Shown in pieces: positions 33,301 through 34,306 of a DNA stretch of 64,000 nucleotides. A program made the translations under genes and the position numbers. Position 1 is the stretch's first letter. Every line of letters begins with the position of its first letter. Source of the DNA: Curvibacter microcysteis (GTDB taxonomy: Bacteria; Pseudomonadota; Gammaproteobacteria; Burkholderiales; Burkholderiaceae_C). The notes under the pieces were generated by a model. The model was given only the letters and a program-made list of their open reading frames with translations, was not told the DNA's origin and searched no databases. The stretch is from NCBI RefSeq assembly GCF_028649455.1, contig NZ_JAQSIO010000001.1:558001-622000 (forward strand), read 5' to 3'.

Positions 33301-33527
33301 CCGGCGATGCTGCCCAGGGCGCGCTCCAGCGGCGTGGCCACGGTGGTGGCCATGGTTTCGGGGCTGGCGCCAGGCAGGCTGGCCGAGACCGAGATGGTGG
33401 GGAAGTCGACCTGGGGCAGCGGGGCGACGGGCAGCAGGAAGAACGCAATGATGCCGGCCAGCAGGATGCCCATGGTGATCAGGGTGGTCGCGATGGGGCG
33501 GCGGATGAAGGGCTCGGAGAAGTTCAT
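30390..33527 (-). CDS. mdtC: RND multidrug efflux permease (MdtC-like)
   Basis: 1045 residues, HAE-1 family proton-driven inner-membrane pump with 12 membrane helices and two large periplasmic domains. Visible marks: the N-terminal [20 protein letters not shown], the proton-relay helix [19 protein letters not shown], and [16 protein letters not shown] near residue 930. By order and similarity it corresponds to MdtC in MdtABC, where MdtB2C heterotrimers export novobiocin- or bile-salt-like compounds; the substrates here are unknown. Its ATG overlaps by 4 nt a doubtful open frame that crosses the repeat element lying between mdtB and mdtC. Downstream it is coupled to the outer-membrane channel gene. 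Confidence 0.93.
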
Positions 33528-34306
33528 GGGATGAGCCTCTCAGGGGTGCGGTAGGCCTTGCCAGCGAAAGGGGTGGCCTGTCCGATCTGGGCTGTTTTGC
33601 TGTTGCTGTTGCTGTTGCTGTTGCTGTTGCTGTTGGCGATGTTGACTGGAAGACAAGGGAACGCCCTTCGCTTCGCTCTGAACACGCGGTGCGCTGGCTG
33701 ATGGTAGAGGCCGGGAGGGCGCCCCGGCAGGCGCCTCACTTTCTTTGCTTCGCCAAAGAAAGTAAGCAAAGAAAGGCGACCCGAAGTCAGGGCCGCTGCG
33801 CGGTCCCCTGCGCTGCTCACACCAGGGGGGGGCCCGCGAAACTCGCTTCGCTCAAACAGTCGCGTGTCCTCATCCCCCTGGCGCTGCGCTGCTCGGCCCT
33901 GCCCCACGGGACAAGCGGGATCGGACGAGCTCACCACCGCACTGGCGATGCTTTTCGGGGTGACGGTGTTGAGGCAGGCGCCGCTGCGCAGCAGCAGGCG
34001 TTGGGGCCCGTGTTCGACTTCCCGTGTCACCCGGCGAGCAGCGCAGGCCGGGGCGGGAAAAGGGCTCGCGACTGTTTGAGCGAAGCGAGTTTCGCGAGAC
34101 CCCGCCCTGGCCGAGCAGCGCAGCGGACCCTGCGCAGCAGGGCGGGTGAGTCGGGTCGCTTTTCTTTGCTTACTTTCTTTGGCGAGACAAAGAAAGTGAG
34201 TCGGCCGCCGGGCCGAAATCCCGGCCTCCGCCCTCAACGAAAGCACTGCTTGTTCAAAGCGAAGCGAAGGGCAGGAAAGCAAGCCAAAGCCAAACCAAGC
34301 ACTCAT
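33524..34306 (-). CDS. Open frame of 260 codons crossing the repeat element; doubtful protein
   Basis: An ATG frame runs without a stop through the whole space between the two permease genes. Its ATG overlaps the mdtB stop by 4 nt and its TGA overlaps the mdtC ATG by 4 nt, the same ATGA coupling seen elsewhere in the operon. The product is Arg/Ala/Ser-rich, has no recognisable domain or membrane segment, and contains six Asn-Ser pairs from the hexamer repeat near its end. Most of its sequence comes from the inverted repeat. It may serve only to carry ribosomes from mdtB to mdtC, or may be chance; an actual functional protein is the least likely reading. Confidence 0.3.
33599..33634. repeat. 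Hexanucleotide tandem repeat (GCTGTT)6
   Basis: Six perfect copies of GCTGTT lie between the inverted-repeat element and the mdtC start, about 70 nt upstream of that ATG. In the open frame crossing the region they encode alternating Asn and Ser, and unit gain or loss would not change the frame. Confidence 0.9.
33738..33763. repeat. Nested hairpin in left arm
   Basis: ACTTTCTTTG pairs perfectly with CAAAGAAAGT around the loop CTTCGC. The same stem recurs in the right arm at 34172-34197 with a different loop. Confidence 0.85.
34172..34197. repeat. Nested hairpin in right arm
   Basis: ACTTTCTTTG pairs perfectly with CAAAGAAAGT around the loop GCGAGA; stem identical to that at 33738-33763. A retained stem with a changed loop suggests the hairpin itself matters to the element. 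Confidence 0.85.

Follow-up and report, generated by a model that had tools for sequence, protein, structure and literature searches.

An open reading frame through a palindromic insert between mdtB and mdtC: a candidate translated bridge in Curvibacter and its relatives

Why does the gap between two genes of an efflux operon, filled by a long imperfect palindrome, stay open in one reading frame that touches both neighbors? The question arises in a window of 64,000 nt from Curvibacter microcysteis (the window is the whole stretch of DNA that was analyzed, and all positions refer to it unless a locus is named), in which the mdtB stop and the mdtC start are 775 nt apart. An earlier note, made from the sequence letters, had claimed that a frame of 260 codons runs through this gap with ATGA at both ends, and had suggested that, if mdtB and mdtC were once directly coupled, the element between them would be a tolerated ‘translational bridge’, possibly under selection. 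The coordinates confirmed the claimed frame. The features of the locus are listed below; G and L numbers are our handles for genomes and loci, and the genome of the window is G000.

28921–30393, minus strand: outer-membrane efflux protein, operon context (open reading frame; NCBIfam)
30390–33527, minus strand: mdtC, RND permease subunit, downstream gene (open reading frame; NCBIfam RND_permease_2 subfamily cut-off passed)
33524–34306, minus strand: bridge open reading frame, 260 codons (ATG at 34306–34304, TGA at 33526–33524)
33524–33527, minus strand: exit ATGA, in which the bridge TGA overlaps the mdtC ATG
33536–33541, minus strand: GAGAGG, Shine–Dalgarno-like, 8 nt before the mdtC ATG (read from the sequence)
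33597–33644, no strand assigned: hexamer repeat, CAACAG on the minus strand (direct repeat D1)
33663–33784, minus strand: outer palindrome arm, last in the transcript (inverted repeat I1, 84% complementary)
33735–33766, no strand assigned: hairpin core motif, copy 2 (repeats D2, I9)
33802–33876, minus strand: inner palindrome arm (inverted repeat I2, 83% complementary)
34055–34129, minus strand: inner palindrome arm (inverted repeat I2)
34151–34272, minus strand: outer palindrome arm, first in the transcript (inverted repeat I1)
34169–34200, no strand assigned: hairpin core motif (CTTACTTTCTTTGGCG type), copy 1 (direct/inverted repeats D2, I10)
34303–34306, minus strand: entry ATGA, in which the bridge ATG overlaps the mdtB TGA at -4 spacing
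34303–37380, minus strand: mdtB, RND permease subunit, upstream gene (open reading frame; NCBIfam MdtB/MuxB equivalog, 1643 bits, cut-off 1584)
37437–38981, minus strand: mdtA, periplasmic adaptor, operon context (gene call; NCBIfam MdtA/MuxA)

The junction in the window

Every relevant gene of the mdt locus lies on the minus strand. The products of mdtA, mdtB and the outer-membrane gene scored above the NCBIfam cut-offs of their matching families, and the top NCBIfam match of mdtC was the MdtC model with 1540.7 bits, which is under that model's cut-off of 1774. The mdtB stop codon TGA occupies 34305–34303 and the mdtC start codon ATG 33527–33525. We observed that the palindrome is composed of two imperfect inverted-repeat pairs, one of 122 nt and one of 75 nt, and that in transcript order it is followed by the hexamer repeat and then by GAGAGG before mdtC. 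The hexamer repeat is longer in the sister genome G001, and its unit length preserves the frame. Folded alone, the insert RNA reached -506.9 kcal/mol (z of -22, 20 shuffles). No sigma-70-like site was found in the insert, while terminator-like sites numbered three over both strands compared to 1.4 expected. An Rfam search of the element gave just two matches, both under the gathering score (E of 0.35 and 0.95), and neither Pfam, NCBIfam nor the phage records contained a convincing match for the palindromic element.

The remaining two sense frames of the gap contain 5 and 6 stops, and the bridge frame was open by chance with a probability of 0.02 (400 dinucleotide shuffles of the gap). A start codon gives ATGA automatically if the second codon begins with A, and a TGA stop gives NTGA automatically. 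What is informative is that both ends are joined by one open frame. At the window junction alone the openness of this frame is only moderately unusual, and the decisive evidence is the comparison of junctions. On the plus strand a frame of 221 codons (33689–34354) is also open through the element, which is expected because the element is palindromic.

The bridge frame is long, has a start codon and is tightly spaced to both neighbors, and it might accordingly be taken for a real gene encoding a conserved protein. Against this, five element bridges including that of the window matched nothing in Pfam (to E 1) or NCBIfam (to E 0.01), and the codon scores were negative in all nine bridges computed (-0.16 to -0.44 per codon; -0.16 for the window bridge vs +0.6 for mdtB and mdtC). 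Moreover, the orientation in which the element is read varies from locus to locus, and at one and the same junction G000 and G001 have the palindrome in opposite orientations and an open frame in both. Since near-identical copies are open whether one or the other element strand serves as the sense strand, a conserved protein is unlikely, and we consider a gene in this sense very improbable. In the bridges openness and phase are conserved and peptide content is not.

mdtB–mdtC junctions across bacteria

We resolved 126 of 130 mdtB–mdtC loci; the other four gave no mdtB–mdtC pair. The 130 loci were composed of 80 from the first relatives search, 7 from the genus search, 40 family-survey regions and 3 element loci, and the family-survey comparison used 50 pairs among the matches listed. 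This set is not random, since long junctions were sought and the first survey regions were picked as long-looking. For each junction we compared the exit frame, in which the stop codon overlaps the downstream start, with the in-phase frame and the third frame. A direct -4 overlap was observed in 67 of the 126 resolved junctions, so that direct coupling is the usual state, as the premise of a formerly coupled mdtB–mdtC pair would have it. Inserts of at least 290 nt occurred at 16 of the 126 junctions, and three of these were genic (YebC/TACO1, OsmC and a YhgA-like transposase, confirmed by Pfam) and were set aside. One of these junctions, L391 in G162, has a complete YebC/TACO1-family gene at 601–1335 of the locus and no element.

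In the non-genic inserts of at least 290 nt the exit frame was free of stops in 13 of 13 cases, compared to 0 of 13 for the in-phase frame and 0 of 13 for the third frame. The frame is thus open beyond chance, and the in-frame stops that the earlier note had proposed to look for were found in none of the 13 inserts; this comparison supports reading the element as a probable translational bridge. One insert (L428) has masked N inside, and for stop counts we used the 12 inserts without N, which together contain 60 stops in the in-phase frame, none in the exit frame and 56 in the third frame. These 12 inserts are 292–1255 nt long and come from the genus of the window (three), from six other genera of its family (seven), from a Zoogloea MAG and from Acidovorax delafieldii 2AN. 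All 12 have a start codon in the exit frame, located at -4 (eight inserts), -8 (two), -11 (one) or -1 (one) relative to the mdtB stop. For comparison, an excerpt of a 2025 review gives -4 as the most frequent spacing of coupled genes and describes an enrichment of -1 and -8 too (PMC12548453). The frame, its phase, its entry and exit and their recurrence from insert to insert are direct observations.

A related expectation of the earlier note, that length differences should be multiples of three, held within the genus (775, 889 and 805 nt) and failed over the 12 inserts, of which nine have a length of 1 mod 3 (entry at -4 or -1) and three of 0 mod 3. The latter three enter in the other frame via an ATG at -8 or -11, which indicates that the frame is kept and not the length as such.

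Could a GC-rich, stop-poor palindrome simply be open by accident? The shuffle probability of a single gap leaves some room for this (0.02 in the window and 0.13 for L393), and some copies between convergent genes are open by chance, with 10 frame-openings in 70 strands. Chance is nevertheless hard to reconcile with 116 stops in the other frames of the 12 inserts vs none in the exit frame, or with an exit frame open in 13 of 13 inserts vs 0 of 26 for the other frames, and barring a bias in the survey we regard it as barely credible. The 13 inserts may not all be independent, as three come from one genus and those of G079, G155 and G129 may share descent: for both the G155 and the G129 insert the best match was the G079 mdtB–mdtC insert. 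In 2 of the 12 inserts, those of Acidovorax delafieldii (L010) and G145 (L393), no clear copy of the palindrome motif was found. The longest bridge was observed at L352 (G262), where a gap of 1255 nt is stop-free in the exit frame and has 5–6 stops in the others; by eye, this junction contains more repeats besides the palindrome.

Next, we regarded the nine genomes of the window's genus more closely. A complete insert is present in G000, G001 and G003, and the ATGA-to-ATGA frames are fully open over 260, 298 and 270 codons, respectively, with insert lengths that differ by multiples of three. In G002 and G004 the junction is split by contig ends, with element sequence on the fragments (on both sides in G002, on the mdtC side in G004), while G006, G007 and G008 show a direct GTGA overlap of mdtB and mdtC and G005 a gap of 27 nt. 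The palindrome (33663–34272 in the window) is inverted in G001 (L090) compared to G000, with shared flanks and an open frame in both, perhaps via recombination between the palindrome arms. Two of the three genus inserts have an open antisense strand too, which is likely for a palindrome. Many draft contigs (G002, G003, G004) end inside the element and some copies contain runs of N, and for this reason copies are undercounted in draft genomes.

By the best BLAST piece, the inserts of G000, G001, G003, G262, G328 and G106 are nearer to copies elsewhere in their own genome or genus than to any mdtB–mdtC insert in the set, although the G000 insert matches such a copy only slightly better than it matches G001 (495 vs 455 bits). 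From this resemblance it appears that the mdtB–mdtC junction probably received an insert, or had its insert exchanged, on several occasions.

Element copies elsewhere and the exit-frame preference

In the genome of the window we found one other strong copy (L003 1471–2238, on G000:C2 near 79,200–79,900). It lies at an unrelated locus between two same-strand neighbors, an acyl-CoA dehydrogenase-like and a CoA-transferase-like gene (named by eye), and shows a TTGA entry, 255 open codons and an ATGA exit. A motif survey placed the element family in at least 45 of 399 genomes of the family. Among the matches listed, 126 loci had both flanks, with 83 same-strand, 38 convergent and 5 divergent pairs. 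Genes were called by a codon-usage script with computed, not curated, starts, and L159 is a weak call. The counts exclude divergent pairs and loci that have over 10 N in the gap, an incomplete flank or a gap outside 150–1300 nt, and they also exclude motif matches mostly at contig ends (e.g. G258:C16, G152:C11:408, three of G028 and several of G004, and also G126:C13 and two of G074). L258, L260, L251 and L252 were added by hand as BLAST matches without the motif, and the downstream start of L152 was set by hand. Element copies were also found in five plasmid records, the best being a Variovorax copy between convergent genes. In L149, L260 and L275 the element occupies a second gene pair in two genera, with a frame that ends 4 nt into the downstream gene; the pair consists of an ABC ATPase-like gene (~230 codons, named by eye) downstream of an 882-nt gene.

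Among the matches listed, 72 same-strand loci had gaps of 150–1300 nt, and a fully open frame was observed in 24 of 72 for the exit frame, in 2 for the in-phase frame and in 1 for the third frame. No fully open exit frame was found in 48 of the 72, and many of these loci may not be operon pairs. After collapsing orthologous pairs to 58 clusters the values were 14.8 for exit, 2.0 for in-phase and 1.0 for third (p = 1.9e-5). Without the six mdtB–mdtC loci the exit frame was open in 18 of 66 loci vs 2 and 1, respectively, which in 57 clusters corresponds to 13.8, 2.0 and 1.0 (p = 4.7e-5).

For better evaluation we used two controls. In 70 strands of copies between convergent genes the in-phase frame was open 4 times, the exit frame 3 times and the third frame 3 times. 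These convergent copies too begin after a stop codon, and therefore the position past a stop does not itself set the frame. General gaps without the motif, a small control, showed no preference for the exit frame: in-phase, exit and third frames were open in 12, 6 and 8 of 33 gaps of 150–300 nt, in 0, 1 and 0 of 6 gaps of 300–500 nt and in 0, 0 and 1 of 4 gaps of 500–1300 nt. The antisense strand was open in some frame at 15 of 43 same-strand loci (0 and 15 nt trimmed). As the palindrome predicts that the antisense strand will often be open, we relied on the comparison of frames and on the convergent copies.

The exit-frame measure has a history that bears on its weight. Our first measure was frame 2, the frame overlapping the upstream stop, which was open in 21 of 40 same-strand loci of the discovery set vs 2 of 40 convergent strands. 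In a pre-stated replication on new genomes frame 2 was open in 7 of 29 loci vs 1 of 28 convergent strands (p = 0.052 with the pre-stated trim of 45 nt, 0.052 with 20 nt and 0.24 untrimmed). With six left-over loci of the first survey (L355–L360) the replication gave 8 of 32 vs 2 of 30 (p = 0.083, 0.024 and 0.11 for 45 nt, 20 nt and untrimmed). The exit-frame measure was defined after this replication, prompted by the mdtB–mdtC comparison, and its counts in the same sets are not a blind replication: 17 of 40 in the first and 7 of 32 in the second set (with the six left-over loci), vs 2 and 0 for in-phase and 0 and 1 for the third frame. In the new genomes the exit frame was open in 5 of 29 loci vs 0 in-phase and 1 third, and without mdtB–mdtC in 3 of 27 vs 0 and 1; the first survey without mdtB–mdtC gave 13 of 36 vs 2 and 0. 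The exit-frame rule is thus very strong at mdtB–mdtC, and the evidence that it extends to other operons comes mainly from the first survey.

We also compared copies in G002 and G003 that are 87–92% identical to the G003 mdtB–mdtC copy and lie in varied gene contexts. At same-strand loci all five copies had some frame open through the core on the sense strand, three of them with the element in one orientation and two with it reversed, while the unused strand was open in 2 of 5 and the strands of convergent copies in 0 of 4. In three of the five (L151, L258 and L152, the last with the hand-set start) the frame stops 12–24 nt short of the downstream start. Open copies differ by small indels that tend to offset one another (e.g. 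+1/+2, +1/-1, -2/-1); the -2/-1 pair is also present in a convergent copy. The weakly called same-strand locus L159, which contains several element copies, is closed and stands outside this comparison. That near-identical copies are open where they are read as sense and closed between convergent genes strengthens the suggestion that the bridge is possibly under selection, as do the signs of repeated arrival at mdtB–mdtC.

Proposed mechanism and related repeats

Taken together, our findings suggest that the insert is a palindromic element tolerated at a coupled junction as a translated bridge and kept or spared by selection, a reading to which we give a probability of roughly 0.77 on sequence evidence. 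A repeated palindromic element family, assigned to Burkholderiales from named relatives, would have inserted in a junction that is normally coupled by a -4 NTGA overlap. A ribosome ending mdtB would restart at the overlapping ATG, read the entire element in one frame, stop at the TGA overlapping the start codon of mdtC and restart there. Translation of the bridge would keep ribosomes reaching mdtC and would melt the very stable hairpin, and RNA covered by ribosomes would keep Rho from ending transcription. Selection would then retain, or merely spare, insertions with a sense strand free of stops in the exit frame. The translation of the bridge, the restart and the fitness reason are what we infer from the observed geometry.

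Protection from polarity might already be sufficient: translation would bar Rho and open the hairpin, mdtC would be served by its own Shine–Dalgarno sequence and the ATGA exit would have no role. GAGAGG 8 nt ahead of the mdtC ATG fits this, and so do bridges elsewhere that end short of the downstream start (e.g. by -11, -12, -16, -30 and -33 nt in L300, L151, L263, L283 and L264, respectively). However, coverage alone predicts that open frames ending shortly ahead of the start in any phase are as common as exact exits, and the exit frame dominates, with 24 fully open vs 2 and 1 over the same-strand loci and 13 vs 0 and 0 at the mdtB–mdtC inserts. This strong preference for the exact exit at mdtB–mdtC would favor the delivery of ribosomes over mere coverage of the RNA, and we regard polarity protection as the only function as unlikely.

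The closest known system are the mycobacterial interspersed repetitive units (MIRUs), which, as outlined in excerpts, follow the same principle as the present family. The primary paper on MIRUs is reportedly that of Supply et al. 1997. A MIRU-like feature of the window is that the bridge is coupled to the downstream gene by a -4 overlap, the exit TGA lying over the mdtC ATG. The present family differs from MIRUs in size, palindromic form, use of both orientations, entry spacings and host group: compared by the excerpted description, MIRUs are short mycobacterial repeats, whereas the inserts studied here are 292–1255 nt long, mostly palindromic and probably from Burkholderiales, are used in either orientation, are entered at -4, -8, -11 or -1 and have copies between convergent genes too.

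The parallel invites the explanation that the element brings its own frame into NTGA sites, so that the coupling would be a product of insertion and not of selection. An empty junction is usually an NTGA overlap (67 of 126 at -4), and insertion at NTGA sites is described for MIRUs in an excerpt of the review cited above (PMC12548453). Yet copies between convergent genes show no such frame, and the element sits in either orientation, with different strands used. At many loci the NTGA at one end begins with another base than that at the other (GTGA or TTGA vs ATGA), and no target duplication is apparent. The recognizable element sequence of L092, by most comparisons, starts ~7–18 nt past the mdtB stop and ends ~35–60 nt before mdtC. 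An insertion bias of this kind is, in our view, quite improbable.

Compared to other mobile repeats, the element is MITE-like in being repeated, in having long inverted repeats and in the absence of a transposase domain from the five element bridges searched. Rickettsia palindromic elements (RPE) are likewise palindromic mobile sequences kept translatable; in the excerpts at hand they are ~150 bp long and form in-frame fusions inside proteins, in contrast to a separate frame between genes here (PMC2229807, PMC10969869). YPAL/RU-2 of Yersinia and other MITE-like repeats are described, in the excerpted text, as small, with stable hairpin transcripts and open frames, and co-translation with upstream genes is stated for YPAL copies; these repeats are ~100–200 bp long and fused in-frame to genes, whereas here the coupling is at both ends (PMC2229807). 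BRE, a repeated element of Betaproteobacteria including Comamonadaceae, is mostly intergenic like the present element and, as described, would differ from it in being ~90 bp long and tandem at some loci (PMC3110155). A literature search by title and start of the abstract, mostly over papers free of subscription, returned no such element family or bridges in Burkholderiales.

If the translated-bridge reading is right, selection on translational coupling itself would be legible in the sequence of these junctions. The inserts at a single gene pair are similar to different element copies and all keep the frame that would deliver ribosomes, with a peptide apparently without conserved content, and the question of how far ribosome delivery between cistrons, apart from transcription, limits the expression of an operon becomes testable. 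Bridges that are translated would also yield new polypeptides, hundreds of codons long, from palindromic DNA; annotators should be aware that such frames may be real translation yet not genes. More tentatively, and short of being probable, large mobile Burkholderiales palindromes might survive in coupled operons by being translatable on either strand that happens to be sense, in the phase that joins the two genes, so that the junction filter would repeatedly make long translated frames, up to ~400 codons, out of non-coding palindromes and in this way open a natural path to new proteins.

Finally, the picture is less clear among shorter mdtB–mdtC inserts (90–289 nt), in which the exit frame was open in 8 of 10 and the other frames in 2 and 3; the exceptions were Geomonas (L053) and Methylorubrum (L077). 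The coupled-junction filter may act on unrelated repeats as well, such as the short inserts of Pseudomonas. In the Pseudomonas junctions L026, L029 and L039, inserts of 121–148 nt are open in the exit frame and in the third frame too.
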